From contig NC_060114.1 in the NCBI RefSeq assembly GCF_021155765.1, forward strand, positions 8,923,501-8,987,500: 64,000 nt of DNA. The letters are read 5' to 3'. A model generated the notes under the pieces. That model saw only the letters and a list, made by a program, of their open reading frames with translations, searched no databases and was not told where the DNA came from. The position numbers and the translations under genes were made by a program. This document shows, one piece after another, positions 40,601 through 64,000 of the stretch. This stretch comes from Diprion similis. Its lineage: Eukaryota > Arthropoda > Insecta > Hymenoptera > Diprionidae. Position 1 is the stretch's first letter, and each line of letters starts with the position of its first letter.

Positions 40601-43600
40601 CCAACCATCCAGAGCAAGGTCACTGTCCAGCCTGCACAACCCATGCAACAGCAGCAGCAGCTGTCGACATTGCAGACGCAGCAGATTCCGCAACCGCCAC
40701 AGCAGCAGCAGCAAACGCTACAGAAAATCACTGTCGTACAAAATGTGACCCCTGTCGCCAAGGTCAAAACGCCTGAGGCCAAAAAAGACAAGAAGAAACT
40801 CGAGGTTCTTGCAGATATCGCGCCAAAAGTCGAGGTGGAGCCCGTCAAACTTCCAGAACCAAAAACACCCGACGGTTTGTAGTTTTTCTTAAGTTTTTCA
40901 CACTAAATTGTTCAGGGATTATAGTGTAATGGTATTTTTCAGGCCTTGGAAGTGCCTTAAATTCTCTAAAACTGCGTAATCTGTTCTAAAATAATTCTAA
41001 AATTCTACAAGACTTTGATATATCGTTCTTAGGCCTGAAAATATTCTTGAATTCATTCGTTGAATATCCTTTGGGTACTTCTGTTATTCGGGCCTGGGAA
41101 GTGTCCTAAATTATCTAAAACTGCATATTCTGCTCCAAAAAACTTCTAAAACCCACCGAAAAAAGTTGGATTCATCACTCCAAGTGCGAAAATCTAGCTA
41201 CTCACTTTTCTGCTTCGGCTTTTTGTTTTCCGAGCAGCTAAAAAACACCAAAAACGGGAGCACAGAAAATCACCTTCGCATTTTGTGGACGCTCTGGGTC
41301 CGGCGCTGTTCTCGACTCCAGACATAATTCGGCGGGTCGGTTCAGGCGGGGAGCCAAAAACTTCTGAAGTCATCGCTACAACGAGTCCGGTGCAAAAGTC
41401 TGCGCCTGCAGCTGCAATTGTCATCTCTCCGAGTTCAGGAACATCCACGAACCTGATAGTCGCAGGTTCTACCGTTCATTCAATGTCGGCGAGTTCAACA
41501 GCGACGATTTCGACACCGGCAAATGCAACTGAGGCGGATAAAATGGAGCAGAGTAACGAAGAAGATAATCAAATGAAATTGCTAGGCGAAAATCAGGCCG
41601 ACGCGATTCCTCGAGACGATGAGAAAACTGAGGCTAAAGCTCCGCTCGTCGAGGAACTTCAGCCTTCTTTGGACGCCGGTGGTGATTTTCATTTTTCCCA
41701 TTATGTCAATTTTACTATTTGCTGATTTTTTTTCCTAACGCAAGTCTTTAAACGATATTAATTACTTGATAGTTACTATTGTCAATTCTCTATTCCTTTC
41801 CTTTGCATTTTGCGTGAGTAATCTTCTCACTTTCTGATGTTCTCTGATCCTTTTACTGTACAGAATATTTCACTTCACACTAAATGACTTCGTTTTCTGC
41901 ATGACCACTGCTGCGCATAATTTGGTGTGGTACTAAGGGAATTTTCATTTCTCTATTTGTTTTTTTATGCACTATGATGAAAAATTCAAACAAAATTTCG
42001 TTAACTCTGTTTTTATTGTCGTTATTATTACCGTGATCGTCGTTATTTTTTCATTAGCTTCGCACGCAGCTCGGAATACTGAAGTATCTTCAGCATCCGT
42101 AGAACAACATCACCCTGTTCCCAAAACAGTTGTACCCGAATCCAGTAAGTGTTGGTATTCTTTTTTCTTTCTCTTTCTTCTTTTTTTTTTCTTTACATTT
42201 TTGTCTAATCATCTAATCTGTGTTCTTCTTTGACTTTCCACGTTTTTACTTACTCTATATTCTGTGTGAAAAATTTAAAAATCGCTTACAGAAACATCGC
42301 TTTTTTCATAATATCCTTTATATTTATTCTTTTGCGGTTTTTCATTAATTTCAGGTGGAATCGAAGGTGAAGAACATTTACTGGCAACGCTTGAAATGGA
42401 GGCAAGTAAGCACGAAGAGGAATTATTGGCAGAGGCTCTGCTTCTTCAGGAAGCCTTAGGCGTTGATTTGGCGGATCACGTAAGTCTGAAATAAAACAAA
42501 AATTTAATAAGAACACCACCATTCAATTTCTTCTTTTACCGTGAAGATAGTTCTGAAAAAAGAACCTTCAAAGTACCTTTCATCTGGATTAATTACTCAT
42601 AACTTTGTAACAAACTGAGAAACCAGTTTTCGTGGTCTGAAACGCAATTTTTCTTTGTACTAATTTATTTCACTCGATTGCACTTCATTTCTTCTGTGTC
42701 TTTCTCATTATTTTCATTATTATTAACCTAGCCTTCTTGCTTTATTCATTTTCTTTCATGTTTCTGAAGGCCACTCTGGGTGATCAAGCTTCGCCGGTGA
42801 CAGAGGCACTTTTGCCAACAGCAGCACCGTTTGCTCCGCTGTCAGAAACGACCACTGGCGAACAGCAAGAGCAGCATCGACACCAAATAGCGTCGCCGGG
42901 CAGATCGGTACCCTCATCGCCAACAGTTGCAATGCGGCCCGTCATATCATCGAGTGACGTGACAAGCAACAAGAACAAAATTGTCCGGGATGACAAGGAG
43001 CCCGTTCAAATCGTTCGTGGAGGTCGCATTATTACTCTGCCACCGATTGAGGCCCCTGCCACCAGAAGCAAGCGACTTCAGACGAAGAGCGAAAACGTCG
43101 TTACGGCAACTACGCCAACGCCCACGCAAAAAAAAGTCGAAGCCGGAAAGAAAAGCGAGAAGACAATGTGAGTGGCTTGAAAGTTTCTTTCACCAATCTG
43201 TCGAGGATTTTTATGAGTCGAATCACGTGGATCGTCACGTTGTTAGATTCATTAGCTTTTCCAACAAATTTTTGTGATTTATTCTTGGTTATTACATCAA
43301 GTTTTTGTTCTTTATTTTTTGCTTTTTCAGCAAATCTAATACCCCATCAACTTATTGACATTTATATTTTTCGCTTTTCTAGCAAATTTTGTCTTCCGCC
43401 TCGAGAAGCGCCTTTGCAACAGAGCAGAGACGAGGTCGAGTCTGAGATGGACGAGGACGACGAAGACAATGAGAATTCGGATTCCGAAGATGACCCCGAT
43501 AGGCTTTGGTGCATCTGCAAGAGACCACACAACAATCGATTCATGATATGCTGCGACGTCTGTGAGGATTGGTTCCATGGAAAATGCGTTCACGTCAGCA

Positions 43601-46600
43601 AGGCAATGGGTAAGATTTGAATGTACCAAACTTCTCTGCAAAACAAGTTCGATTCACCTCTAGAAAGCGACCAGAACTTTAAACCTGGAAAAACAGTCCG
43701 CGTTCGCAAACTTATTATGAGCTCGTGTTTCAGGTCAACAAATGGAGGAAAAGGGCATTGAATGGGTCTGCCCTAATTGTGCAAAGAAAAAGTCAGATGA
43801 CACCAAGGAGACGCTTTCCGCGCCCTCACCTAAGGGCCGAAAAACCTCCTCGGACTTGACGGCAGCTGCCTCGCCTGCAGATCTTCCACAGAGTGTCTCG
43901 TCTCCCGTCCACGCAGCCACGGCTTCGTTGACCAGCTCTGCGGGCTCACCTGCTTGCATCGCTACATCGCCGGTCGTCCCAAGCGCCAACGTCTCCGGGG
44001 TGACACAGTGTGTCGTCTGCAAGAAGGAGGCTAGAAACTCTAGCATTTACTGCTCGGACGCCTGCATTTTGACGCATGCGCAGGAATCTCTGACAAAAGA
44101 CAAGCCGCCGCAGGCTGCTTTGCCGCATCCCAAATCTGCAGTTAAGTCAACGACGCAAGAAAATATTAAGAGCAAACCTGACGCCAGGGTCATCGTCTTC
44201 GAGAGGAGATCCGGAAAGGTTTTGACCGGTGAGACATGATGTGACTATTTGAAAATCGCAACAATTTCGTGACACGAAGTTGTTGGTGTCGTCTGCTTAT
44301 AATCATCCAATCAAAATCTAAAGTCAATTTTGGTCTTAATCCACGCACATATTCTTAGCTCAGAGCTGACTAAACTTTGGACTCGAACGATCTAGCAGTA
44401 TTCGAGTTATTCCAATAACAAAATCAATTGCGTATGATGATGTTTTATGTGCTCAAACTGGAAGTTCTTCGGCTAATCCACCAAGAGGAGCCGGATTAAT
44501 CGCGTTTTTGAATATCTATTTTATTGGAAACATACTCAAATCTTCATTTTAGAACATTTTATCAATTGCATCTGTAATAGAACGAAATTAATCAACTTGT
44601 CCTCACCCCCTTCTGTTTTTTATTTTTTCTGTACTAAAGGCGCGGACGCACCAACAACATCGAACCTAAAGACATGGCTCAAAGAGAATCCTACATACGA
44701 AGTTGTCCGACCTAACAATCTGAATGCGCTTCAAATCGGTGGAAAAACAGTAACGGCCATATCAACACCTGGACTGAGTGGGAAAATTGTGAGTATTTGA
44801 TTTTTCTGACGGTGATTCATTGATTTTCAAATCTGAACTTTACCATTGGCGAAACAGGTATATTTTCAGGTATAATAAATTTTTTTTGGGGGGCGCTCAA
44901 AGTTGTAAAGCTAAACCTAAAACTGATCGCTGGTCAAAAAATCTTTCAGACGAAAATAAATCAGCATCTATTAGCTAAAAGTCAACAAGGTCAGGCAAAG
45001 ATGGTCTATGCAAAGGTGGCGGGTTCGAAGCAGACGGTCCTGGCAGCCAGCAACAGTAAAAAAGTGACAATAGTATCGAGCGGAGGAAACTCGCAGCTTT
45101 CCAGTCCGTCGGTGCAGTCGAAGCCACAAGTTGTTCCAGCTCGACAGATGCTGCTGACGCAGATGTCAAGGAATCCGACACAGCTAGCTTCGAAGCAAGT
45201 TTCGTCACCAAAGCAAATGGGGCAGCAGCAACTGATCAAGAGTCAGGCAACTACGACGTCAATGACGAAGCAGCTTGCTGTTAAAAAAGCAGACGCCAAG
45301 GCCTCAACTTCGTCTCAGCAGCAGCCGAAGCTCCAAGCAACGGTGGCGAAGCGGCCGGAGACCGAGCCAATTAGACTGAACATCAGGAAGACGCTGGCGG
45401 AGCTATTGTCGAGCAGAATAAAAGAGGCAGAGGACCTGCGACTCGCCGAGGACGAGATAACTGAGCTGGTACTGAATATCGAACTCGAGATGTACAAGTT
45501 CTTTCGGGACACGGGTGCCAAGTACAAAGCGAAGTACCGCAGTCTCGTCTTCAACATCAAAGATACCAAGAACCTGACGCTCTTCAGGAAGATCGCCGAT
45601 CGATCGCTGGCGCCTGACGCAGTAGTGCGACTTAGTCCTGATGAGATGGCAAGTCAAGAGCTCGCCGAGTGGAGAGAAAAGGAGACGAAGCACCAGCTTG
45701 AGATGATTAAGAAGAATGAACTCGACCTGATGGCGCAGGCCAAGTCGATCGTCGTCAAGACGCACAAGGGCGAGCTGATTATAGAGAATGATGGAGGCGT
45801 CGAGCGCGTAGATCCAAAGACGCCGGTTCAGGACATTGTAACGGCACTGAACAGTGGAGACGGTATCACTTCATCAACAGCCGGTGACGAGGAGAAAGCC
45901 AAAGAAGAGGAAGGCAAGTTAAAGGTAAAGCATGAGGCGAAGAAGACGACGTCGCACGTCGGAGAGAAGAAGAAGGAAAAGGAAAAGGAGAAGGAGAAGG
46001 AAAAACAGGAGAGGAGTCGGAGTCGAGGCAGACGACATCACAGCAGGGATTCGGACAGCCGGAGCAAAACGAGGGAGAAGAGTAGGGAACGAGAGAGGAG
46101 GTCCACAAGGTCCAAGGAGACCAAAAGAGACAAAGATCGAGAGAGGGAGAGGGAGAGAGAAAGGGACAAGGACAGGGACAGGGACAGGGACAGGGAACGC
46201 GACAAGGAGAGGGAGCGGGAGAAGATTAAGGAGAAGGACAAGGACAAGCACAAGAAGAGCAACAGGAGCAGCAGTACTAGAAATCGAAGCAGAGGGAGGC
46301 ACAGGTACTTGAATTGTTGCACTTTCGTATTATTCCACTATTATGTTTAATGCAAGGAGGACAAGTCGGGTCATGGGATTTTTGTCTCCTTCCAAAGTCG
46401 TAGAACACAACGGTCGTCACTCGCACATTGATTTTTCAAAATTGTAAAGCGTAGTCCTCCGTAAACCTTGAGATAATTGATATTATTATTTTTAATAATC
46501 TCGCTTGAAGAATTGTGTTTTTTTTTTCTCTTCATTTTGTGATTACACTGGAACATTTATTTTTATGTTCATCGTCAATTCAATACTGCCATTTGTTGAT

Positions 46601-49600
46601 CACAATGAAAATCGGGATGCAATATTCTAAAATCAAATATTCAACCATGCTAACATGATATATTATCGTATAAGCTGGATGAAAAATCCACCGAAATTCA
46701 ACACGTTTAAGGATATACCAAACGTACAGTCCACTCATAAAGCTGTAAGAACAGAAATATCATATAATCTAGATTTGAAAGTGCAGCTGAACTTTGTCAA
46801 GTTGAATTTAATTTATATTTTCTATTTGACTAGAAAAATATTTTCAGTGAGATCTTAATAAATGACGACTGGCAAATCAGTACCTTAATAAAAAAATATT
46901 TCACTGTTATTTAAAATCTGATGTTGCAGATTTGTAGAGATTTCAGTTGAGAACCAAAAAAAAGAACCAAAAACTAGGGCTGTTTCTTAAAATCGTTCAC
47001 ATGATGCGGTTTTTTCATTGACGAAATGATTTGATAAATTGACTTTTCAGTCATCAATATTTGTGCTGTGTAGCTGAAATTTATGGTTTTTTTAGTAACA
47101 ATTCTGTGCCAAGGGAATATTGATTCAACTAAATTCAACTCGACCAACTTTGGTTGCACTTTCAAACCTTTCTTATATCATATTTCTATCGTTACAGCTC
47201 TTTGACTAGAGTGTGCGTTTGATACAGCCCTCAATCGAGTTTCTACTTCTTTAGCGTACTGTGGAAAAAAGCTGACAAACTTTCTTTTAGGGATTACAAC
47301 TCGAAAGACAGTGTAACAAAGAAGGAGGATGATCGCAAAAAGGAGGTCGCGGAGTCTCGAAAGGAGCCGAGCCCAGCGGCGCAAGAAAAAACAATGCCGA
47401 TTGAGGACAGACTGTGGCGTCACATAGAGGACGAGACAACAACGAATAACACAATGGACGGGAACGAGTCGGACGTTTCGGACCGAGAGCCAAGCTCCAC
47501 AGTGACGATAAAGACGCCAGACTTCAACGAGGAATTGGAGAGGGAAAAGGAGGAAGAAGAGACAGTGGAAGCTGCAGAGACAAAGCTCGAGGAGCAGCAG
47601 CGTCGGCTGGAAACCCGAGACCCTGAACCCGTTCTGCAGACTGTCTGGCGAGGCTTCGTCAATATGGTTGACGTTGCCAAGTTCTTCATTACCGCTCAGG
47701 AAGTCAGTGGACAAGCGCGCGACCTTACCGAGGATTTGCCTGACACCGTCGACGTCGTCGGTCGCATCAGTCACGAGACGGTTTGTAACGATGATACGTA
47801 CATATATGGTTCTGTTTTATTACATTGACCAGGGTGTCTATTGCCTGGCAGAATCTGAAAACCCTGGAATACTTGGGGAATTTTGTTTCTTTATCTGTGG
47901 ATGAACGGCTTGAGCACCGTTTGAATTGAAAGTTAGGAAAAGGGAAAACATTGCTTAAACAATCTCGAGCTGTGTTATTGGTGCCAATGCCCATGTACAT
48001 GAACGAAACAGCATCCTTACTGTGTAATAGAAATGATTTTGAAGGACTTTGAATGACAGAAGCTAAGATATCAACAATTTGAGGTAAGGTTTTACTGTTA
48101 GAACATTCAAAATGCTAGTTTTCTCGTTCAAAATATTCAATATTGTCTAAGGAACGAGTGCTTAGAGACAGCTTATTCCAATTTCGACTAACAATAAGAC
48201 CATTAGGTGTGTTATAATATTAGTAGATAGTATTATATCTATTCGTATATATTATTTATAAAATTTTATTCAAAACGTTCTTTAGAAATTTCAATACTCG
48301 ACAAAACGAGCCCAAAAAACTAGAATCTAAAATCCTTTCTTTTTCTCTAATTGTAAAACCTTTTTCTTAAACTGTCGACACCTTAGCCTATGTTGATAAA
48401 AATTTGCTCAGAATCATTCGTGTGATGTAATATCGATGTTGTTCACCATCATTTGCACAGTACAAACTGAAATTTTTTCAAAAGGTATTGCTTTCTTCTT
48501 TCTAAATCTTGGTGCATCCTTAATCACTCTATTCGCATTGATATATTAATTGTGATATGATCTCTGCATCGGTCGAGTCATTCAACTACTGTCTCCGCAG
48601 GTCTGGGACTACATATCAAAGATGAAACGAACGGGTTCAAAGGAGATCCTCGTGATCCGATTGACAGCGGCCAACGATGAGGAGAAAATCCCTTACATAA
48701 CGCTCTACAGCTATCTGAACAGCCGGAGCCGTCTCGGCGTTGTCGGCAACGTGTCGAAGAACATCAAGGACTTCTACATAATGCCTTTCTCGAGCCAGAG
48801 TGTCGTTCCGCGGGTTTTGTTGCCGCTGGACGGCCCGGGTTTTGAGGAAAACCGGCCGCATCTTCTGCTCGGCATAATCGTGCGGAACAAGAGGAAACGG
48901 ACGATGACGCCGATCGGCGGCAACGTGCCGCCGAAAATTATGCGCAAGGAAACGGAAATTGGGCGCAGTTACACACCGCCGATCCTCGATCCGCCGGAAA
49001 CCGCCGTTTCAACGACTCCTTCCACCGCTTCGCCAACAACTCTACTCGCACAGGCAGCTTCTGGCTCACTCAGCGACAACCCGGGATGGTAAATAAGCGC
49101 TTCAATCACTACCACTCGGTTTTTCAGATTCAATTTGCTTTTTGTCACTTGTTTTAGTCAAATAGTCACTTTGGCCAAGTCTTCAATCAAAAAGAAGAAA
49201 AATTTTGTATTAACATCCCGTTTTAAATGTCGTAGAGCTGGTAAATATCTAATCACTTTTCTCGCTTCCGCTAACTCTTTCAGATCCAAGTCGTTTATTG
49301 GCACAATTTTAATCCAAACAAAGATAAATTTTTTGTTTACACTCCGTCTTACACGTATAATTTGTGTCTTGATTCAAAAGACAATAGAGAACTCATTTTA
49401 TGATTCCCTAATACATAACTGTGGTCTGTATTATATTTTAAAGTATCTTCTTGGGCATTTGATCGATTTTAGCAATAACAGAAATACTATAACTAGGTTG
49501 AAGTATAGTGCAATCTGTACTTATTTTTTTTCTTACAATCTTAGTCATACTTTTTCTAAACTTATTAATTCATTCATTCAAAATTGGAACCAAACAATCC

Positions 49601-51821
49601 CAAAATAATATGTTAGTTATATTACAATATAAATATGATAACTGAAGATAAATTCATTCGTATCTTTATAAGCATCGTAACTTTTCAGTAATCTCATGGT
49701 CAGTTTTGTTTATAATAAAATCTCACTCGTCCTGCAATTTTTAAAGGTCATCGCCATTGCCAGCTCTGGACAAGCAAAACGTCGTGACGCAACTGACCCT
49801 GGAAACTCTGAACAAGGCCCACGTTGGAATGTCTAGAGCCTCCATAGTAGACAGTGCCAAGATGGCGAAAATCGTCCCAGAACTCTCAGCCAAGATTCAG
49901 CTTGCCGACGACATTCCTGATCCCGATGATGGCGATGAGCCTTACAGTCCCGGCCAGATGGATGAGGACATACATCAGGACGACGATTCCGGACGGTTTG
50001 GAACCTCCGTCTCTGCTTTGGATGACATCGCCAAGTCTCAACAGCGCGGCGTCGCTCTGTCCAACGATTTAGCCGCTGTCGCTAGTCTGCAGGCGCTCGC
50101 TGTGCCCTCCAAAAATTCCAATGAACTCCAGAGGAAGATGGACGAACTTAATAGACAGATCGAAGAACAGAAACAACAGATACAAAGCATCAGTTCGTCT
50201 TTTCTCGGCGATGCTGCTGCCACTTTACCGGTGAGGAATATTACTGCTCTTCTGCCGACGTTCTTTTTCGATTTCGTCCTGAAAGTTGTATCGATTAAGT
50301 TTTCGAACATCATCATCATTGTATTGAGTTCATACTTTTAATTAAATTCGAACATTCTGCAATTGAAATTCTCGCATTTTCGATCAGATTCAGCTTTTAT
50401 TTCGTTTCTTCTGCGTTTCTGAGGTCGAAAACTTCCAATCTTCGTAACATTTCTGAAGATGTCGCGACGACATAGATTTTCTGTTAAACTGTTTCTCAAT
50501 TAGGTGTCCTGAATGAGCCCGTCTATTTCTCTTTTTTTCGTTGCATATTTTGAGGGATCCATTCAAGTTTAACTACAAACTATTCTTAAATTTTGAAAAT
50601 TGTGAGCGTTATTTCCAGTTCCTGAACGCTTATAGCATTCTTGAGTGTTTGATCAAAAGATACAGAAAAATTACAATAAAAGTTGTATATCATAACAAAA
50701 ATTCTTTCCTTCGAGTAATTAATACATTTCTGTCTTTCCAGGGTCTTGGCCTAGATCCGCCGTGTCTCAACGATTCCGAGGAGGCTTACAGTCCGACGGA
50801 CACTCGATCATTCACCCCACCGCCTCCAGGACTATCCAAAATATCCCAACCGATCCTGGACAAAGTTTCGAACATAACGATTCCCGCCAATCTGCAGGAA
50901 ATCTTGGCCAACGTTAAGCGGCAAGAGATAACTAAGGTCGACCCTTACCTGCCGTCGAAGCCGAGTGCAACTTTTCTAACCTCGGTGAATGCGGCGGCGT
51001 ATCAAAAGCCTGAGAAATATGTGCCGAACGCGTACAGCAAAGGCATGAATCAGATAAGTGGAATGGGAATCGGGACATCTTCTTCTTCCTCGTTCTTCGA
51101 ATCGCAACCAGAGGAGCGTAAAAAAGAAAACAGAAGCACGCTTGGTTCGCTCAGCGATCTCGACCTGATAAAAAAAGCCGAGGAGGAACTCGCAGCTGTT
51201 GCGGAACTCGCAGCGGTTGCGGAAGCCGCGGCCGCTGCTACCGTCTCAAATTCAAACTCCAGTTCCTCCCCGTCGTCGTCGATGTCGTCGAATTCTTCCT
51301 CTTCTTCATCGTCCTCCTCGTCCTCCTTGACCAAGACAACGACGACCACGACGACGACGACGAGGTTTCAAGTCCCACCGCCATCCTCGCAGCCTCATCC
51401 TCACATTCCCTTACCGTCGCCGTCAAATTCCCATCAGCAGCAACGAAGCCCGACGACAAGTTTTAGCCCGGAACCTTCACCTCCGGCCTCGCTGAGGCCG
51501 GATTCCGGAACTGCTTCTTCCACTCCAAGGAAAAACCTGACTTTCGATCAGCCCAAGCCACCCGGCCTCGAGGACGAGGACTTTTCTCTCGGTTTCCCAG
51601 CCGTCACACCGACGCCGATTGGCAGCGCCGGATTATTCGTAGAAGAAACCGTCGCGTCGAAAAGTAAAAGTGGGAAATTTTTGCCTAAAAGCGGCGTCGT
51701 TCTGAACGTTAAACGCAAAGTCGGCGACGAGGCAACGATATCACAATCCGCTTCGCCAGCCGCCTCATCAAAGACCCCGAGAACTAAGTCCAGGTGGGGA
51801 CAGGGACCAGGCGATAAATAA
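37669..51821 (+). CDS. pps: PHD-TFIIS-SPOC protein (PHF3/DIDO1/Pps family)
   Basis: Nuclear regulator of RNA polymerase II transcription. In the family, SPOC binds the phosphorylated CTD and the TFIIS-like domain contacts Pol II. Exons: 37669-37789, 37890-38162, 38614-38894, 39000-39174, 39373-39672, 40161-40874, 41238-41678, 42058-42144, 42355-42479, 42770-43167, 43383-43609, 43734-44228, 44640-44788, 44950-46304, 47291-47780, 48601-49088, 49747-50230, 50742-51821. Sum 7683 nt (2560 aa), phases consistent. Domains: AT-hook-like RGPGRPRR in exon 4, PHD near 1013-1065 (LWCICKRP to CPNC), a second Cys cluster CVVCKKEARNSSIYCSDAC, TFIIS central domain near 1400-1525 (RKTLAELL), an Arg/Glu/Asp repeat tail, SPOC near 1825-1975 (VWRGFVNMVDVAKFF), and a Ser/Ala/Pro-rich C-terminus ending RWGQGPGDK. 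Orthology to fly pps rather than a DIDO name is inferred from architecture. The exon 7 donor could be 3 nt later. Confidence 0.9.
39673..40160 (+). other. pps intron 5 with a half fold-back element
   Basis: From about 39855 (ACTGTTATTGTGAATAATGG) to about 39990 the sequence resembles one arm of the element in hyd intron 24, sharing AATATCTCGAAAACTGC, CTGAACCGATTTATTTC and GGTATTCTTGGAT. The rest is AT-rich. Confidence 0.5.
40938..41160. repeat. Diverged tandem duplication, period about 149 bp
   Basis: CAGGCCTTGGAAGTGCCTTA at about 40942 recurs as CGGGCCTGGGAAGTGTCCTA at about 41091, and both are followed by AATT.TCTAAAACTGC and a TTCTAAAA stretch. Lies in pps intron 6 (40875-41237). Confidence 0.65.
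41679..42057 (+). other. pps intron 7
   Basis: AT-rich intron. The donor choice is ambiguous: GCCG/GTGGTG ends the exon at 41678, and GGTG/GTGATT at 41681 also keeps frame. Nothing else recognised. Confidence 0.55.
43383..43609 (+). other. pps: pps exon 11: acidic stretch and PHD finger
   Basis: Encodes an Asp/Glu-rich run then DRLWCICKRPHNNRFMICCD, CEDWFHGKCV. The last ligands come from exon 12 (EWVCPNC). The Cys4-His-Cys3 set is complete, and the Trp of DWFHG, used by methyl-lysine readers, is present. Confidence 0.93.
44229..44639 (+). other. pps intron 12
   Basis: AT-rich intron without recognised elements. Confidence 0.55.
44950..46304 (+). other. pps: pps exon 14: TFIIS central domain and Arg/Glu/Asp repeats
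   Basis: The largest exon. It encodes the TFIIS-M-like helical domain (IRLNIRKTLAELLSSRIKEA, then YKAKYRSLVFNIKD and NLTLFRKI), then a highly charged tail of alternating R/E/D/K from about 45940 to 46290. The GA-rich DNA makes long antisense open frames of Leu/Ser that are shadows. Confidence 0.92.
46705..47236. mobile_element. Fold-back MITE in pps intron 14
   Basis: The left arm GGATATACCAAACGTACAG (about 46711), CTGTAAGAACAGAAATATCA (about 46742) and TTTGAAAGTGCAGCTGAA (to about 46815) is inverted at the right as rc GGCTGTATCAAACGCACAC, CTGTAACGATAGAAATATGA and TTTGAAAGTGCAACCAAA (about 47118-47232). The arms are about 100 bp at roughly 75-80 % identity by eye, with about 300 bp between. 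No coding capacity. Element ends and target duplication are not resolved. Confidence 0.75.
47781..48600 (+). other. pps intron 15 with a dispersed repeat
   Basis: From 47971, TGTGTTATTGGTGCCAATG and later AAGATATCAACAATTTGAG repeat the order of words seen in hyd intron 36 from 25989. The remainder is AT-rich. Confidence 0.5.
48601..49088 (+). other. pps: pps exon 16: C-terminal part of SPOC domain
   Basis: Encodes VWDYISKMKRTGSKEILVIR and YLNSRSRLGVVG, ending in HLLLGIIVRNKRKR, the second half of the SPOC fold begun in exon 15 (WRGFVNMVDVAKFF). The basic residues KRTGSKE and the later SRSR lie where family members bind phosphoserine of the Pol II CTD. Confidence 0.88.
49089..49746 (+). other. 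pps intron 16
   Basis: AT-rich. A long open frame continues past the donor into the intron (49135-49608) but has no recognisable similarity and is Ile/Leu/Phe/Lys biased, as expected of AT-rich noncoding DNA. Confidence 0.55.
50231..50741 (+). other. pps intron 17
   Basis: AT-rich intron that happens to be open in the frame of exon 18, so intron retention could extend the reading frame. No element recognised. Confidence 0.55.
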
Positions 51822-54350
51822 TCCATATATCGATTTAGCAACAGATCGTTCTCAGTGCGTTTACGAGTGTTGTGTTGTTGCGATTGATCGACGGCATCGC
51901 TTCTACCGTTTTTTAATAGTGCTTTTCATCGATATTTTTTTTTTTTCGTTTCGTTCTTTTCATTATTTGCATGTCGATTGTGTGTCATTTTTCCTTGACG
52001 TCGTCGTCAATAAACGAACATTATCCAGGGATTTTTAATGCTACATCGGATGAACCGCGTTCGGAATATGAATTGATCACATCCATTCTACAATAAATGA
52101 GTGGGGAGTCTGCCAATTTCCAAATACCGGTTATTCTTCTTTTACACACACACATACACACACACACCATATTTTTTATCACTAATTTAGTAATTATAAT
52201 GATGATGATAATAATAATAATTAATATTTTTATTATTCTCGTTATTATCATTATACTTATGCGATATAAAGTAATTAATTTTTTCGTTTTTTACTTTTTT
52301 GTTTCCTTTTTATACGACTATAAAATTGCTCAGGATGTTTTTCACGATTTTTGGTTTCTCTTCACTTTGCAATTCTTCATTTTGCCTTGTTTCACTTTCA
52401 TTTCTGTTGTACTTTTTCTCGGTTTTTAACCCTGTTTGCGCACTGATTTCTATCTTTTTGTTTGACTGGGTTGTTCAACAAGAAGAAACAAATATTTCGA
52501 CCATATACGTGATTATTTTACACCTGTCGCCGCAGAACTGTCACGGAAATAATTTAAAAAATGCGAAAATGGTACAAAGTTGAAAAAACAATATTGATAA
52601 TAACCATAACTATAAGCGATTGTATACAAATGAGTAAGAAAGAGAAAAAGTTTGCAAAATAGAAAATTAACTCCCTTGGTGAAAATGTGGAGAGTTGAAA
52701 GCGGGGATGAAAATAATTAAAAAAGTGAAAAACATTGGAAAGCGAACTGACGTCTTTTTTTTTGTGTCAGATTCTTGTTAACATTCTTGTAAATACCAAA
52801 GCTTAAAGACGAAGGTGACAAGTGCGGCTATTGAGCTGCTTGCGTATTAATTAATCAATTAATTCAATAACCAACTAATTGATTGGACAATTTCATTGTT
52901 TTATAATTTCATTCATTAAGTCGTTGATGATAATTCGTTAAACTTATAATATAGCATACTGTTGTAGGTGTATCTATAGATAGAGGTCCGAGAGAAAAAA
53001 GAAAGAAAAAGGCGTGGTAACAAAGAAGAATATAAGAGTGTAGTAAACAAAACATGTGTGGTGTAAATATAATGACTTTAGGAGAAAAAACTGATATTGA
53101 ATATTATACATATACTATGTGACAAAAACATTATAATAATAGTAATAACGGTGTAAAGTAAGCATAGATCTGTTCCTTTTCCTTGTCTACTTGTCGTTTC
53201 CATTATTGTTTTATTCTATTTTATTATTATTATTATTATGATTAATAATATTTTTGCATACCAGTTTTCGTACATGATAAGTGATAAATAAAATACAAAA
53301 AAATAAAAGAAAGTGAAGGAAAAAGATAAAAACAGATGATGACAATATTGTCTGAAATAACGATAGATAAAATGGAGCGAATGGGAATGAATATAAATAT
53401 TACTCCAGCAGTATATTCTATGTATAAGGTATTTGAGACATGATTACCTTACGGATATTAATGGATACTTAGCTGCGTGCATATTACAGCTCTTATCACT
53501 ATAGAAAAACATGATAACTATAAGAATGTACCTATGTATGTATGGACACTATGTCAGTTGTGTGTAAATAATATCTAATGATAATAATTATAATGAAAAT
53601 TTAATATTGGTACGGATTGATAATATCACGTTAATATACATACCTATATCGATACGAGGGTATGTTTCACTTTGAGTGAAGATAGAGGGGAAAGAAGGTG
53701 TCGAGATTTTTTTAAATTTAGGTGTATCTATAATGTTATCATCGTCTTCGTCGTGGCTGTACAAAGAAAATTTAGAAGGTGAAAATTAAATTGAGAATAA
53801 AAAATAAATGACTACAAAACAAAACTGTTGAACAAACGAAAATTTATATTATAAACAAATCGTATGCTATTTCATATATTTGAATATGAAAGTGAAACAG
53901 AAAAAAACGACAAGACGTTGGAGAAAAAAAAACAATTTTGCGTAATAATATTGTTTGACGATTTTTGGTTCTTTTTTACCTATCTTCACGCTGCTGCCTC
54001 TTCCTTGCACACAACTTTGTAGATTTTTGATTAATATGACTATTATTATTGTTATTGCTTTTACAACCAACTAAAGTCTGCTAGAAAGCACCAGTGTGAA
54101 TGCGAGATACTGGTAAATGAAAAAATTGATAGGTGAATAGATGGTATAATTAAATATAGAATATGATACTACATTTACATGATGATATGAGAGAGTTTAG
54201 TATACAATGTGGTGTATAGATATGAGGTATGGAGAAAATGTAATGAACTATCATTAAAATGTACGGATATATGTATAAGTATTATATGAGAAATTTAATA
54301 AATGAGTAAGTAAAATTTCAATGAATGTTTTCAACAGAGATATGGCTGAA
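51822..54350 (+). other. AT-rich 3' region of pps
   Basis: Downstream of the stop at 51821 the DNA is AT-rich with CA (52145-52168) and TTA (53218-53240) microsatellites, several AATAAA signals (for example 52009-52014 and 53285-53290) and three TGTAAATA words (52788, 53062, 53563). No coding frame of interest. It ends where satellite homology begins. Confidence 0.6.
52145..52168. repeat. CA microsatellite
   Basis: ACACACACATACACACACAC-type tract in the pps 3' flank. Confidence 0.9.
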
Positions 54351-55300
54351 AAAATGATTTGTACTTAAATCTTATTGAGGAGGGCACAAAAGAATTGTTT
54401 GCAGCAGCTTTTGAATTGGTCAAATTTTTCGCCTAAAATCCAAAAGGATTACCTTACTTTTTTTTAGTTCAAAAATCTTTGGTCTCGAAATCTATTCGTA
54501 TGACCCTCCGTAGACTAATTGCGATCCCCGAAATGCATGAAACCTGCCGAAAAAAAGTGTGTGACCAACAGCAGAAAAATGAGGAACGAGAGACCAGCAG
54601 CGGATATCTTACGAAACAGCTTGTTCGTTGCAAGGCTGTAACTTTCGGTGCGATGCTCGCAGCGGATTGGGACTGCGCTTAATCGATTTCTCTTGCAAAA
54701 TTACGTCGGAGTAGGGCCTTGAAGATTTGAGTACAGCACTTTTGAAAACCGTTGAAATTTTCGCCAAATATCCAGAAGGGTTAACCTTACTTTTTTAGTC
54801 ATGTTCGGAGCCGAAAATTTTTCGTCTCTGAAAAGATTATTATGACCCTTTCTAGGGTAATTGGACCCTCGGGAACTCAGAGAACACAGCGAAAACCTAG
54901 TGGGACGAATAGCAAAGGAGTTACGAAGAAACACCAGCTGCAGAGAAATGAGAAAACAAATTGTATCGTTTTTTGGCTGTTACTTTTCATTCGTTGCTCG
55001 CAGCGCATTCGGACTGCGCTCAATCGATTTTTCTCGTAAAATTACGTTGAGATGGTGCCTGAAAGAATTTATTGCAGCACTTTTCAAAGTCGTCGAAATT
55101 TTCGCAAAAAATCCAAAGGGGTAACTTTTTTGCCTTACTTTTTTAGTCATTTTCGAAGCCGAAAATTTATCGTCTCGGAATCGATTTTCATGACCATCTC
55201 CAGAGTCATTCGCCCCCCAGGAACCCAAAAAACTGCTCAAAAATAGCGTGAGACCAGCAGCAGAGAAATGGCGATGAGAATCATGAGTTTTTCGGCCGTA
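54350..55300. repeat. Diverged edge monomers of the satellite
   Basis: The first two to three units share the unit order (GCAGCACTTTT, CTTACTTTTTTAGT, TATGACC, ACCAGCAGC, GGGACTGCGCTTAATCGATT) but carry many substitutions and indels compared with units after 55600. This is the pattern expected at an array boundary, where unequal exchange no longer homogenises copies. Confidence 0.9.
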
Positions 55301-58300
55301 ACTTTTCAGCTATCGCTCGCAGCGTATTGGGACTGCGCTTAATCGATTCCTTTCGAAATTACGTCGAAATAGTGCCTCAAGAAATTTATTGCGGCACTTT
55401 TCGGAATCGTCGAAATTTTCGCCAAAAATCCAAAGTGTTTAGACTTACTTTTTTGGTCATTTTCGGAGCCGAAAGATTCTCGTCTCGGAATCGATTTGTA
55501 TGACCTTCTCTAGAGTGATTCGACCCCCAGGAACTCAAAAAACACAGCAAAACAAGCGTAGGACCAGCAGCAGAGAAATGGCGATGAAAATCAGGCGTTT
55601 TTCGGCCGTAACTTTCCAGCTATCGCTCGCAGCGTATTGGGACTGCGCCTAATCGATTCCTCTCGCAAAATTACGTCGGAATAGTGCCTCAAGAAATTCA
55701 TTGCAGCACTTTTCGGAATCGTCAAAATTTTCGCCAAAAATCGAAAGGGGTTAGCCTTACTTTTTTGGTCATTTTCGGAGCCGAAAATTTCTCGTCTCGG
55801 ATTCGATTTGTATGACCTTCTCTAGAGTAATTCGACCCCCAGGAACTCAAGAAACACAGCAAAACAAGCGTAGGACCAGCAGCAGAGAAATGGCGATGAA
55901 AATCATGCGTTTTTTGGCCGTAACTTTCCAGCTATCGCTCGCAGCGTATTGGGACTGCGCGTAATCGATTCCTCTCGCAAAATTACGTCGGAATGGTGCC
56001 TCAAGAAATTCATTGCAGCACTTTTCGGAATCGTCAAAATTTTCGCCAAAAATCGAAAGGGGTTAGCCTTACTTTTTTGGTCATTTTCGGAGCCGAAAAT
56101 TTCTCATCTCGGAATCGATTTGTATGACCTTCTCTAGAGTAATTCGACCCCCAGGAACTCAAAAAACACAGCAAAACAAGCGTAGGACCAGCAGCAGAGA
56201 AATGGCGATGAAAATCATGCGTTTTTCGGCCGTAACTTTCCAGCTATCGCTCGCAGCGTATTGGGACTGCGCCTAATCGATTCCTCTCGCAAAATTACGT
56301 CGGAATAGTGCCTCAAAAAATTCATTGCAGCACTTTTCGGAATCCTCAAAATTTTCGCCAAAAATCGAAAGGGGTTAGCCTTACTTTTTTGGTCATTTTC
56401 GGAGCCGAAAATTTCTCGTCTCGGATTCGATTTGTATGACCTTCTCTAGAGTAATTCGACCCCCAGGAACTCAAGAAACACAGCAAAACAAGCGTAGGAC
56501 CAGCAGCAGAGAAATGGCGATGAAAATCATGCGTTTTTCGGCCGTAACTTTCCAGCTATCGCTCGCAGCGTATTGGGACTGCGCCTAATCGATTCCTCTC
56601 GCAAAATTACGTCGGAATAGTGCCTCAAGAAATTCATTGCAGCACTTTTCGGAATCGTCAAAATTTTCGCCAAAAATCGAAAGGGGTTAGCCTTACTTTT
56701 TTGGTCATTTTCGGAGCCGAAAATTTCTCATCTCGGAATCGATTTGTATGACCTTCTCTAGAGTAATTCGACCCCCAGGAACTCAAAAAACACAGCAAAA
56801 CGAGCGTAGGACCAGCAGCAGAGAAATAGCGATGAAAATCATGCGTTTTTTGGCCGTAACTTTCCAGCTATCGCTCGCAGCGTATTGGGACTGCGCCTAA
56901 TCGATTCCTCTCGCAAAATTACGTCGGAATAGTGCCTCAAGAAATTCATTGCAGCACTTTTCGAAATCGTCAAAATTTTCGCCAAAAATCGAAAGGGGTT
57001 AGCCTTACTTTTTTGGTCATTTTCGGAGCCGAAAATTTCTCGTCTCGGAATCGATTTGTATGACCTTCTCTAGAGTAATTCGACCCCCAGGAACTCAAAA
57101 AACACAGCAAAACAAGCGTAGGACCAGCAGCAGAGAAATGGCGATGAAAATCATGCGTTTTTCGGCCGTAACTTTCCAGCTATCGCTCGCAGCGTATTGG
57201 GACTGCGCCTAATCGATTCCTCTCGCAAAATTACGTCGGAATAGTGCCTCAAGAAATTCATTGCAGCACTTTTCGAAATCGTCAAAATTTTCGCCAAAAA
57301 TCGAAAGGGGTTAGCCTTACTTTTTTGGTCATTTTCGGAGCCGAAAATTTCTCATCTCGGAATCGATTTGTATGACCTTCTCTAGAGTAATTCGACCCCC
57401 AGAAACTCAAAAAACACAGCAAAACAAGCGTAGGACCGGCAGCAGAGGAATGGCGATGAAAATCATGCGTTTTTCGGCCGTAACTTTCCAGCTATCGCTC
57501 GCAGCGTATTGGGACTGCGCCTAATCGATTCCTCTCGCAAAATTACGTCGGGATAGTGCCTCAAGAAATTCATTGCAGCACTTTTCGGAATCGTCAAAAT
57601 TTTCGCCAAAAATCGAAAGGGGTTAGCCTTACTTTTTTGGTCATTTTCGGAGCCGAAAATTTCTCGTCTCGGAATCGATTTGTATGACCTTCTCTAGAGT
57701 AATTCGACCCCCAGGAACTCAAAAAACACAGCAAAACAAGCGTAGGACCGGCAGCAGAGAAATGGCGATAAAAATCATGCGTTTTTCGGCCGTAACTTTC
57801 CAGCTATCACTTGCAGCGTATTGGGACTGCGCCTAATCGATTCCTCTCGCAAAATTACGTCGGAATAGTGCCTCAAGAAATTCATTGCAGCACTTTTCGG
57901 AATCGTCAAAATTTTCGCCAAAAATCGAAAGGGGTTAGCCTTACTTTTTTGGTCATTTTCGGAGCCGAAAATTTCTCATCTCGGAATCGATTTGTATGAC
58001 CTTCTCTAGAGTAATTCGACCCCCAGGAACTCAAAAACCACAGCAAAACAAGCGTAGGACCAGCAGCAGAGAAATAGCGATGAAAATCATGCGTTTTTTG
58101 GCCGTAACTTTCCAGCTATCGCTCGCAGCGTATTGGGACTGCGCCTAATCGATTCCTCTCGCGAAATTACGTCGGAATAGTGCCTCAAGAAATTCATTGC
58201 AGCACTTTTCGAAATCGTCAAAATTTTCGCCAAAAATCGAAAGGGGTTAGCCTTACTTTTTTGGTCATTTTCGAAGCCGAAAATTTCTCGTCTCGGAATC

Positions 58301-61300
58301 GATTTGTATGACCTTCTCTAGAGTAATTCGACCCCCAGGAACTCAAAAAACACAGCAAAACAAGCGTAGGACCAGCAGCAGAGAAATGGCGATGAAAATC
58401 ATGCGTTTTTCGGCCGTAACTTTCCAGCTATCGCTCGCAGCGTATTGGGACTGCGCCTAATCGATTCCTCTCGCAAAATTACGTCGGAATAGTGCCTCAA
58501 GGAATTCATTGCAGCACTCTTCGGAATCGTCAAAATTTTCGCCAAAAATCGAAAGGGGTTAGCCTTACTTTTTTGGTCATTTTCGGAGCCGAAAATTTCT
58601 CATCTCGGAATCGATTTGTATGACCTTCTCTAGAGTAATTCGACCCCCAGGAACTCAAAAAACACAGCAAAACAAGCGTAGGACCAGCAGCAGAGAAATG
58701 GCGATGAAAATCATGCGTTTTTCGGCCGTAACTTTCCAGCTATCGCTCGCAGCGTATTGGGACTGCGCGTAATCGATTCCTCTCGCGAAATTACGTCGGA
58801 ATAGTGCCTCAAGAAATTCATTGCAGCACTTTTCGAAATCGTCGAAATTTTCGCCAAAAATCGAAAGGGGTTAGCCTTACTTTTTTGGTCATTTTCGGAG
58901 CCGAAAATTTCTCATCTCGGAATCGATTTGTATGACCTTCTCTAGAGTAATTCGACCCCCAGGAACTCAAAAAACACAGCAAAACAAGCGTAGGACCAGC
59001 AGCAGAGAAATGGCGATGAAAATCATGCGTTTTTCGGCCGTAACTTTCCAGCTATCGCTCGCAGCGTATTGGGACTGCGCCTAATCGATTCCTCTCGCAA
59101 AATTACGTCGGAATAGTGCCTCAAGAAATTCATTGCAGCACTTTTCGGAATCGTCAAAATTTTCGCCAAAAATCGAAAGGGGTTAGCCTTACTTTTTTGG
59201 TCATTTTCGGAGCCGAAAATTTCTCGTCTCGGAATCGATTTGTATGACCTTCTCTAGAGTGATTCGACCCCCAGGAACTCAAAAAACACAGCAAAACAAG
59301 CGTAGGACCAGCAGCAGAGAAATGGCGATGAAAATCATGCGTTTTTCGGCCGTAACTTTCCAGCTATCGCTCGCAGCGTATTGGGACTGCGCCTAATCGA
59401 TTCCTCTCGCAAAATTACGTCGGAATAGTGCCTCAAGGAATTCATTGCAGCACTCTTCGGAATCGTCAAAATTTTCGCCAAAAATCGAAAGGGGTTAGCC
59501 TTACTTTTTTGGTCATTTTCGAAGCCGAAAATTTCTCGTCTCGGAATCGATTTGTATGACCTTCTCTAGAGTAATTCGACCCCCAGGAACTCAAAAAACA
59601 CAGCAAAACAAGCGTAGGACCAGCAGCAGAGAAATGGCGATGAAAATCATGCGTTTTTCGGCCGTAACTTTCCAGCTATCGCTCGCAGCGTATTGGGACT
59701 GCGCCTAATCGATTCCTCTCGCAAAATTACGTCGGAATAGTGCCTCAAGAAATTCATTGCAGCACTTTTCGAAATCGTCAAAATTTTCGCCAAAAATCGA
59801 AAGGGGTTAGCCTTACTTTTTTGGTCATTTTCGGAGCCGAAAATTTCTCATCTCGGAATCGATTTGTATGACCTTCTCTAGAGTAATTCGACCCCCAGAA
59901 ACTCAAAAAACACAGCAAAACAAGCGTAGGACCGGCAGCAGAGAAATGGCGATGAAAATCATGCGTTTTTCGGCCGTAACTTTCCAGCTATCGCTCGCAG
60001 CGTATTGGGACTGCGCCTAATCGATTCCTCTCGCAAAATTACGTGGGGATAGTGCCTCAAGAAATTCATTGCAGCACTTTTCGGAATCGTCAAAATTTTC
60101 GCCAAAAATCGAAAGGGGTTAGCCTTACTTTTTTGGTCATTTTCGGAGCTGAAAATTTCTCGTCTCGGAATCGATTTGTATGACCTTCTCTAGAGTAATT
60201 CGACCCCCAGGAACTCAAAAAACACAGCAAAACAAGCGTAGGACCGGCAGCAGAGAAATGGCGATAACAATCATGCGTTTTTCGGCCGTAACTTTCCAGC
60301 TATCACTTGCAGCGTATTGGGACTGCGCCTAATCGATTCCTCTCGCAAAATTACGTCGGAATAGTGCCTCAAGAAATTCATTGCAGCACTTTTCGGAATC
60401 GTCAAAATTTTCGCCAAAAATCGAAAGGGGTTAGCCTTACTTTTTTGGTCATTTTCGGAGCCGAAAATTTCTCGTCTCGGAATCGATTTGTATGACCTTC
60501 TCTAGAGTAATTCGACCCCCAGGAACTCAAAAAACACAGCAAAACAAGCGTAGGACCAGCAGCAGAGAAATGGCGATGAAAATCATGCGTTTTTCGGCCG
60601 TAACTTTCCAGCTATCGCTTGCAGCGTATTGGGACTGCGCCTAATCGATTCCTCTCGCAAAATTACGTCGGAATAGTGCCTCAAGAAATTCATTGCAGCA
60701 CTTTTCGAAATCGTCAAAATTTTCGCCAAAAATCGAAAGGGGTTAGCCTTACTTTTTTGGTCATTTTCGGAGCCGAAAATTTCTCATCTCGGAATCGATT
60801 TGTATGACCTTCTCTAGAGTAATTCGACCCCCAGGAACTCAAAAAACACAGCAAAACAAGCGTAGGACCAGCAGCAGAGAAATGGCGATGAAAATCATGC
60901 GTTTTTTGGCCGTAACTTTCCAGCTATCGCTCGCAGCGTATTGGGACTGCGCGTAATCGATTCCTCTCGCAAAATTACGTCGGAATAGTGCCTCAAGAAA
61001 TTCATTGCAGCACTTTTCGGAATCGTCAAAATTTTCGCCAAAAATCGAAAGGGGTTAGCCTTACTTTTTTGGTCATTTTCGGAGCCGAAAATTTCTCGTC
61101 TCGGAATCGATTTGTATGACCTTCTCTAGAGTAATTCGACCCCCAGGAACTCAAAAAACACAGCAAAACAAGCGTAGGACCAGCAGCAGAGAAATGGCGA
61201 TGAAAATCATGCGTTTTTCGGCCGTAACTTTCCAGCTATCGCTTGCAGCGTATTGGGACTGCGCCTAATCGATTCCTCTCGCAAAATTACGTCGGAATAG

Positions 61301-64000
61301 TGCCTCAAGAAATTCATTGCAGCACTTTTCGAAATCGTCAAAATTTTCGCCAAAAATCGAAAGGGGTTAGCCTTACTTTTTTGGTCATTTTCGGAGCCGA
61401 AAATTTCTCATCTCGGAATCGATTTGTATGACCTTCTCTAGAGTAATTCGACCCCCAGGAACTCAAAAAACACAGCAAAACAAGCGTAGGACCAGCAGCA
61501 GAGAAATGGCGATGAAAATCATGCGTTTTTTGGCCGTAACTTTCCAGCTATCGCTCGCAGCGTATTGGGACTGCGCGTAATCGATTCCTCTCGCAAAATT
61601 ACGTCGGAATAGTGCCTCAAGAAATTCATTGCAGCACTTTTCGGAATCGTCAAAATTTTCGCCAAAAATCGAAAGGGGTTAGCCTTACTTTTTTGGTCAT
61701 TTTCGGAGCCGAAAATTTCTCGTCTCGGAATCGATTTGTATGACCTTCTCTAGAGTAATTCGACCCCCAGGAACTCAAAAAACACAGCAAAACAAGCGTA
61801 GGACCAGCAGCAGAGAAATGGCGATGAAAATCATGCGTTTTTCGGCCGTAACTTTCCAGCTATCGCTTGCAGCGTATTGGGACTGCGCCTAATCGATTCC
61901 TCTCGCAAAATTACGTCGGAATAGTGCCTCAAGAAATTCATTGCAGCACTTTTCGAAATCGTCAAAATTTTCGCCAATAATCGAAAGGGGTTAGCCTTAC
62001 TTTTTTGGTCATTTTCGGAGCCGAAAATTTCTCATCTCGGAATCGATTTGTATGACCTTCTCTAGAGTAATTCGACCCCCAGGAACTCAAAAAACACAGC
62101 AAAACAAGCGTAGGACCAGCAGCAGAGAAATGGCGATGAAAATCATGCGTTTTTTGGCCGTAACTTTCCAGCTATCGCTCGCAGCGTATTGGGACTGCGC
62201 GTAATCGATTCCTCTCGCAAAATTACGTCGGAATAGTGCCTCAAGAAATTTATTGCAGCACTTTTCGAAATCGTCGAAATTTTCGCCAAAAATCGAAAGG
62301 GGTTAGCCTTACTTTTTTGGTCATTTTCGGAGCCGAAAATTTCTCATCTCGGAATCGATTTGTATGACCTTCTCTAGAGTAATTCGACCCCCAGGAACTC
62401 AAAAAACACAGCAAAACAAGCGTAGGACCAGCAGCAGAGAAATGGCGATGAAAATCATGCGTTTTTCGGCCGTAACTTTCCAGCTATCGCTCGCAGCGTA
62501 TTGGGACTGCGCGTAATCGATTCCTCTCGCAAAATTACGTCGGAATAGTGCCTCAAGAAATTCATTGCAGCACTTTTCGAAATCGTCGAAATTTTCGCCA
62601 AAAATCGAAAGGGGTTAGCCTTACTTTTTTGGTCATTTTCGGAGCCGAAAATTTCTCATCTCGGAATCGATTTGTATGACCTTCTCTAGAGTAATTCGAC
62701 CCCCAGGAACTCAAAAAACACAGCAAAACAAGCGTAGGACCAGCAGCAGAGAAATGGCGATGAAAATCATGCGTTTTTCGGCCGTAACTTTCCAGCTATC
62801 GCTCGCAGCGTATTGGGACTGCGCCTAATCGATTCCTCTCGCAAAATTACGTCGGAATAGTGCCTCAAGAAATTCATTGCAGCACTTTTCGGAATCGTCA
62901 AAATTTTCGCCAAAAATCGAAAGGGGTTAGCCTTACTTTTTTGGTCATTTTCGGAGCCGAAAATTTCTCGTCTCGGAATCGATTTGTATGACCTTCTCTA
63001 GAGTGATTCGACCCCCAGGAACTCAAAAAACACAGCAAAACAAGCGTAGGACCAGCAGCAGAGAAATGGCGATGAAAATCATGCGTTTTTCGGCCGTAAC
63101 TTTCCAGCTATCGCTCGCAGCGTATTGGGACTGCGCCTAATCGATTCCTCTCGCAAAATTACGTCGGAATAGTGCCTCAAGGAATTCATTGCAGCACTCT
63201 TCGGAATCGTCAAAATTTTCGCCAAAAATCGAAAGGGGTTAGCCTTACTTTTTTGGTCATTTTCGGAGCCGAAAATTTCTCATCTCGGAATCGATTTGTA
63301 TGACCTTCTCTAGAGTAATTCGACCCCCAGGAACTCAAAAAACACAGCAAAACAAGCGTAGGACCAGCAGCAGAGAAATGGCGATGAAAATCATGCGTTT
63401 TTCGGCCGTAACTTTCCAGCTATCGCTCGCAGCGTATTGGAACTGCGCCTAATCGATTCCTCTCGCAAAATTACGTCGGAATAGTGCCTCAAGAAATTCA
63501 TTGCAGCACTTTTCGAAATCGTCAAAATTTTCGCCAAAAATCGAAAGGGGTTAGCCTTACTTTTTTGGTCATTTTCGGAGCCGAAAATTTCTCATCTCGG
63601 AATCGATTTGTATGACCTTCTCTAGAGTAATTCGACCCCTAGAAACTCAAAAAACACAGCAAAACAAGCGTAGGACCGGCAGCAGAGAAATGGCGATGAA
63701 AATCATGCGTTTTTCGGCCGTAACTTTCCAGCTATCGCTCGCAGCGTATTGGGACTGCGCCTAATCGATTCCTCTCGCAAAATTACGTGGGGATAGTGCC
63801 TCAAGAAATTCATTGCAGCACTTTTCGGAATCGTCAAAATTTTCGCCAAAAATCGAAAGGGGTTAGCCTTACTTTTTTGGTCATTTTCGGAGCTGAAAAT
63901 TTCTCGTCTCGGAATCGATTTGTATGACCTTCTCTAGAGTAATTCGACCCCCAGGAACTCAAAAAACACAGCAAAACAAGCGTAGGACCGGCAGCAGAGA
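54350..64000. repeat. Satellite array of 312-bp monomers, truncated by the window end
   Basis: The anchor CGTATTGGGACTGCGC recurs at 55323, 55633, 55944, 56257, 56569 and then every 312 bp to 63745. Two diverged anchors lie at 54663 and about 55004, giving about 30 units. Unit spacing at the left edge is irregular (341, 319, 310, 311, 313) and sequence divergence is high there. Inside, copies differ at only a few sites. Each unit includes ATTTTCGG-AG-CCGAAAAT, an interrupted palindrome. The short 62-codon frames that recur are by-products of repetition and are not conserved in all units. The array continues beyond 64000. Confidence 0.97.

Follow-up and report, generated by a model that had tools for sequence, protein, structure and literature searches.

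Satellite DNA of the kind described here, scattered along chromosomes, is already known in other animals. In Drosophila melanogaster the 1.688 satellite has a unit of similar size, ~360 bp; in the sawfly Diprion pini, satellite subfamilies were reportedly described by Rouleux-Bonnin et al. in 1996. The 312-bp family of Diprion similis can be likened to both, by description only: it is a diprionid sawfly satellite with subfamilies and, like the euchromatic copies of 1.688, it consists of tandem repeats near genes, with homogenisation reduced between distant arrays, but the euchromatic 1.688 arrays mostly comprise no more than six repeats, whereas 312-bp arrays extend over tens of kb (PMC10048060). 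TCAST and the euchromatic satellites of Tribolium castaneum are likewise found close to genes, scattered through insect euchromatin (PMC5844308, PMC10048060), though mainly as single repeats rather than in long arrays; TCAST1 is, moreover, also a heterochromatin satellite, whereas the blocks sampled here are made of other families. The Tyba satellite of Rhynchospora resembles the 312-bp family in that its arrays, tens of kb long, are spread over the full length of chromosomes, but Tyba co-localises with CenH3 in these holocentric plants (PMC10048060), and Hymenoptera are listed as monocentric (PMC4359364). Satellites of Crassostrea gigas are dispersed along chromosome arms (PMC10048060), but as short arrays and monomers tied to Helitrons; the 312-bp arrays are long and no carrier was found for them. 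A literature search, with thin coverage of subscription papers, found no description of the 312-bp monomer.

The window (the whole stretch of 64,000 bp that was analysed) is C10:8,923,501-8,987,500 in an assembly of 60 contigs and 269,008,206 bp. It holds part of a gene called pps in the preliminary description, followed by a satellite array:

43510..51821, + strand: 3' part of a pps-type gene (PHD 43,510-43,605; TFIIS_M 45,361-45,705; SPOC 48,598-48,888)
54393..64000, + strand: 312-bp satellite array, left part, reaching ~C10:9.018-9.020 Mb (TRF, BLAST, probes)
54393..55626, + strand: decayed left edge, four units 72.6-94.6% identical to the array consensus (BLAST)
55627..64000, + strand: homogeneous interior, units ~98-99% identical to the consensus (BLAST, self-matches)

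The predicted combination of PHD, TFIIS_M and SPOC domains is compatible with a pps-type protein, and four of seven ORFs in the window have Pfam matches. The last ORF of the gene stops at 51,821, 2.57 kb short of the array. TRF reports a repeat at 54,996-64,000 (period 312, 28.8 copies, 97% matches, score 16,876); BLAST with the consensus finds the first recognisable unit to the left of that call, at 54,393, and from there rightward the units are 72.6, 81.9, 84.0, 94.6 and then ~99% identical to the array consensus. The end of the window cuts the array: C10:8,987,501-8,997,500 is array throughout, and so are probes at 9.000, 9.006, 9.012, 9.014, 9.016 and 9.018 Mb (99.1, 98.5, 95.8, 98.2, 96.6 and 88.8%, respectively), while C10:9,020,001-9,030,000 contains no 312-bp array. 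The array is therefore ~40-42 kb long; ~41 kb corresponds to roughly 130 units, and the units are diverged at both ends (by BLAST on the left, by the edge probe on the right). The preliminary description of this DNA had seen an apparently non-coding array beginning about 2.5 kb after the pps stop codon, with a near-identical interior and diverged edges, and all of this stands; its ~30 head-to-tail units are a real array of period 312, but the count stops at the window's end.

Several tests bear on what the monomer might encode or form. The longest open stretch in the six frames of the array (the part in the window plus the array stretch L009) is only 109 aa, each frame having 132-312 stops, and this rules out a coding array. 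The repeat is satellite DNA by the ordinary definition: a long head-to-tail non-coding array with a unit of more than 60 bp. A search of Rfam for an RNA or ribozyme at E <=10 returned two matches (E 1.6 and 4.2), both far under gathering scores; self-comparison of the monomer, with a two-part structure in mind, gave merely short weak matches; and the palindrome TTTTCGGAGCCGAAAA, present in the consensus of the window, is broken in some other arrays. The single-strand fold of the monomer is ordinary (z -0.39; 34 of 100 shuffles equally good).

How widely is the monomer distributed? The conserved 16-mer core CGTATTGGGACTGCGC has 16,098 exact matches genome-wide (7,848 forward and 8,250 reverse), and its reversed control has none in the assembly. 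The core is found in 206 of 270 aligned monomers, which suggests a family of ~21,000 copies (~21,100), amounting to 6.6 Mb or 2.4% of the assembly; these figures are rough, because the fraction of monomers with the core rests on few loci. Arrays were located from the matches listed for the core and for rarer variants, together with probes, same-strand matches less than 50 kb apart being merged. Among the matches listed, in which early contigs are favoured, there are at least 100 separate clusters on 11 of the 14 chromosome-size contigs (10.9-28.0 Mb each, 264.5 Mb in total): 16 on C1, 13 on C2, 24 on C3, 10 on C4, seven on C6, nine on C8, five on C9, nine on C10, one on C11, four on C12 and two on C14. 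(A technical note: of 100 clusters, 30 were read as sequence and 41 rest on one listed match, two of the 41 being among the 30.) Fifty are on the plus strand and 50 on the minus strand, and there is no order in the orientation of neighbouring arrays (32 of 68 alike vs 33.6 expected; 43 of 89 vs 44.0 in a larger set). None of the matches listed falls on C5, C7 or C13; three complete listings, of rare variants only, yield 39 arrays on 11 chromosomes, again with none of the 39 on these three contigs. The probability of that absence is 0.0024, for contigs picked after the fact; the overall chi-square p is 0.045. A further 40 probes of 600 bp on C1, C2, C4 and C10 fell twice in 312-bp arrays, at C4:20.0 and C10:5.5 Mb. 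Many separate arrays lie along the chromosome arms, as would be expected of a dispersed euchromatic satellite.

The genic context of the arrays was checked on C10. Six 10-kb stretches between C10 arrays (9.02-9.27 Mb) have no match to the 312-bp satellite or to either of two others, of 279 and 148 bp, that are taken up below. Five of the nine ORFs from five of these stretches match Pfam (a carboxylesterase, an ion channel, a class I tRNA synthetase and two pieces of Syf1). Ordinary genes occupy the DNA next to the C10 arrays and between them; on this contig arrays lie among genes, again as would be expected of a dispersed euchromatic satellite.

These observations speak directly to the suggestion that the array marks or borders the centromere of C10. 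A pericentromeric or heterochromatic satellite was one of two readings offered by the preliminary description, and a pericentromeric or centromeric one has its attractions: thousands of copies, a unit about two nucleosomes long, a homogeneous interior with decayed edges, and five clusters within C10:8.78-9.49 Mb. But a centromeric satellite should form one main block per chromosome, and what most chromosomes have is several or many arrays, spread along their length, with genes between the arrays of C10. Probes of C10 at 3.5, 4.5, 6.5, 7.5, 8.2 and 8.7 Mb have no satellite match, and near 2.5 Mb, ~6.4 Mb away from the array beside pps, C10 has a 279-bp satellite. With clusters on 11 of 14 contigs and ordinary genes around the C10 arrays, a single centromeric site per chromosome is not supported, and we regard a pericentromeric or centromeric role for this array as highly improbable. 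The same evidence disposes of one half of the check that had been proposed (thousands of copies, at one site per chromosome): the thousands are there, the single site is not. The satellite family itself, which confinement of the monomer to the pps locus would have denied, is borne out by the matches to the core; the other reading offered, a local array in euchromatin, fits the copy beside pps but understates a family that is genome-wide.

The large blocks of satellite that were encountered are of other families. The 279-bp satellite fills the samples taken at both ends of C8 and at the starts of C12 and C15; the 148-bp satellite fills those taken where C14 and C16 begin. Exact 19-mer counts are 24,613 for the former (~6.9 Mb) and 109,002 for the latter (~16.1 Mb), so that each exceeds the 312-bp family in bases. 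The 40 probes already mentioned met the 279-bp satellite at C1:14.5 and C10:2.5 Mb and the 148-bp satellite at C4:0.5, 2 and 4 Mb, and 33 of them met none of the three. Occurring as they do at sampled chromosome ends, on unplaced contigs and in long stretches, the 279- and 148-bp satellites would be better candidates for heterochromatin or the centromere than the 312-bp family. (On C17, 60 bases resemble the 279-bp unit by eye. C1, C2 and C13 begin, and C10 ends, with TTAGG-type repeats.) Kinship of the 312-bp satellite with the other two is not claimed: a 31-column match between the 312- and 148-bp units is weak, being equalled by 2 of 300 shuffles and, on retesting with three consensus sequences, by 2-93 of 500 under two local scoring schemes and 78-341 of 500 under a third, more lenient one; the match between the 312- and 279-bp units is equalled by 147 of 300 shuffles (3-235 of 500 over all schemes).

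One can turn the argument round and propose that the many arrays jointly constitute a holocentromere, as Tyba does in Rhynchospora: the 312-bp arrays would be distributed centromere units, and the 279- and 148-bp blocks ordinary heterochromatin. The arrays are indeed tens of kb long and lie along chromosomes, comparable to Tyba arrays of 20-25 kb (PMC10048060), and, if the proposal were true, distributed centromere units would sit in an insect order that is taken to be monocentric. That view is itself an objection, Hymenoptera being listed as monocentric with CenH3 (PMC4359364; the same source describes hymenopteran CenpC as lacking the CENP-C domain); so are the existence of separate 279- and 148-bp blocks and the absence of arrays from C5, C7 and C13 among the matches listed. 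Both the holocentromere and this division of labour between the satellites appear extremely improbable.

Are the copies within an array more closely related to each other than to copies elsewhere? An alignment of 270 monomers in nine locus groups answers plainly that they are, as concerted evolution would have it. Divergence within groups is 2.4-4.5%, except in a mixed array at C1:0.117 (10.3%); between separate arrays it is 6.9-18.0%. For 245 of the 270 monomers the closest other monomer belongs to the same group, and 19 of the 20 exceptions listed are between two stretches of C3:2.54-2.56 Mb, which are 2.7% apart and probably belong to one array. The neighbouring C10 arrays at 8.98, 9.14 and 9.30 Mb are 9.4-17.0% apart. 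A 23-mer private to the array beside pps occurs 108 times genome-wide, always forward, and the 100 of these 108 places that are listed are all within C10:8,979,043-9,013,697. Almost all of the arrays sampled form homogeneous subfamilies of their own. Private variants of this kind bear on another possibility, that the arrays are artefacts of assembly, made of collapsed or misplaced repeats. The round sizes of C15-C17 (125,000 and 250,000) speak for it, but each array examined has its own variants and unlike flanks, and the 312-bp register and the lag structure are consistent; there is very little likelihood that the arrays arose in this way.

Comparison of 30 arrays (eight from longer loci, two probes and 20 short fetches) extends the picture. 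They are on average ~12% apart, 11.8% within chromosomes vs 12.3% between (p 0.21); for 4 of the 30, vs 3.2 expected, the closest array comes from the same chromosome; and on a tree the chromosome labels need 20 changes vs 21.1 when shuffled (bootstrap unsettled). Arrays on one chromosome have no tendency to resemble each other. In the same tree ten arrays, from C1, C2, C3, C4, C8 and C10, form a single group with good support (97/97, with the bootstrap unsettled). The array at C10:9.49, like the mixed one at C1:0.117, is internally more variable. The arrays are not wholly isolated: a 22-mer of the array at C10:9.30 has 177 matches and is common at C10:8.78-8.81 Mb, occurring elsewhere too, and the arrays at 8.78 and 9.30 Mb pair in the tree (support 96/82); one C1 array and one C4 array are merely 1.9% apart.

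Within the array beside pps, traces of recent change are found. Exact self-matches of 1,106 bp (offset 12 units, from 59,897) and of 2,502 bp (offset 14 units, in L009) show recent multi-unit duplication. Nine sites distinguish the array of the window from seven others: five interior units have the derived allele at eight or all nine of these, while the edge unit at 54,998 has the family-wide allele at seven of nine and the right-edge probe at five of nine. (In the two units furthest to the left, decay is too advanced to show a preference for either allele: 2 vs 2 of six, 4 vs 3 of nine.) The edge alleles and the exact duplications fit expansion and conversion inside arrays, with the edges lagging; that array ends homogenise less has been noted in review (PMC10048060).

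All of this makes it very probable that the array belongs to a 312-bp satellite DNA family that is non-coding, dispersed and largely euchromatic, rarely seeded and locally homogenised. As to the route of spread, we infer that monomers would occasionally found an array at a new site, for which circles, break repair or transposon carriage might serve alike; unequal exchange or conversion may then enlarge and homogenise each array in place, less effectively at its edges.

Transposon carriage of the arrays, for instance on a Helitron, would account for dispersal over 11 chromosomes and is known for other dispersed satellites (PMC10048060). Nevertheless, seven flanks of six arrays, a small sample, have no mutual BLAST match at E <=1e-4 and reveal no carrier or insertion mechanism; the sole insert seen, in L025, is enclosed by an array and resembles a retroelement that landed in it; and decayed single units near two arrays (L019, 66-77%; L021, inverted, 68%, by BLAST) suggest old seeds. 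We consider transposon carriage unlikely.

Does a dispersed satellite of this kind do anything? Selection of the 312-bp family for gene regulation or for production of small RNAs, as has been proposed for TCAST and 1.688, would sit well with arrays that adjoin genes and with the satellite transcription in Hymenoptera, Diprion pini included, cited in PMC2220036. On the other hand, the monomer has no Rfam family and no folding signal, and a conserved box was sought in it to no avail: conservation along the unit is weakly uneven (p 0.11-0.18 for eight arrays; best uncorrected p 0.024 for 30). A selected function of this sort is unlikely, and most likely the 312-bp satellite has no sequence-specific job; at most, its arrays might act as small, local islands of chromatin close to genes.

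A satellite may have thousands of copies in an assembly without this being enough to call it centromeric. The ~100 sequence-resolved clusters could instead be put to use in measuring how a satellite is seeded, expands and is homogenised in gene-bearing DNA, and the same clusters could serve as a test of whether it affects the genes next to it, in an order whose males are haploid.

The two satellites that we take to be better candidates for heterochromatin or centromeres than the 312-bp family have unit lengths of 279 and 148 bp, and each fills sampled stretches and probes on several contigs (C1 to C14 being of chromosome size):

279-bp satellite: both sampled ends of C8 and the starts of C12 and C15, sampled stretches filled
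279-bp satellite: C1:14.5 Mb and C10:2.5 Mb, probes filled
148-bp satellite: starts of C14 and C16, sampled stretches filled
148-bp satellite: C4:0.5, 2 and 4 Mb, probes filled

The former was seen in samples L048, L050, L052, L058, L070 and L090 (stretches taken from outside the window) and has 24,613 exact 19-mer matches assembly-wide; the latter was seen in L049, L051 and L078-L080, and its assembly-wide count, 109,002, corresponds to about 16 Mb. The unplaced contigs C15, C16 and C17 all start with satellite and have round sizes (125,000, 250,000 and 125,000 bases), which suggests that they are cut or capped pieces of the assembly. Another tandem repeat, with a unit of ~191 bp by eye, occupies L077 (C2:7,000,001-7,000,600), where the self-match is near-perfect at 382 bp. 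The starts of C7 (L055) and C11 (L057) share, by eye only, a similar stretch with TTAGG-like pieces in both; it is possibly subtelomeric.

For the 312-bp family, the complete listings, which sample rare variants, place none of their 39 arrays on C5, C7 or C13, contigs that were chosen after the fact and make up 14.4% of the length (P 0.0024). Within one 312-bp array lies an insertion of ~0.8 kb (L025:8313-9160), T-rich at its start, that looks like a retroelement tail in reverse.

On C10, two arrays in opposite orientation lie one on each side of the window array:

C10:8,783,891-8,808,559, 312-bp array
C10:9,290,001-9,311,330, 312-bp array

These two have a subfamily variant in common (tree support 96/82), which hints that the satellite occasionally spreads along a chromosome.
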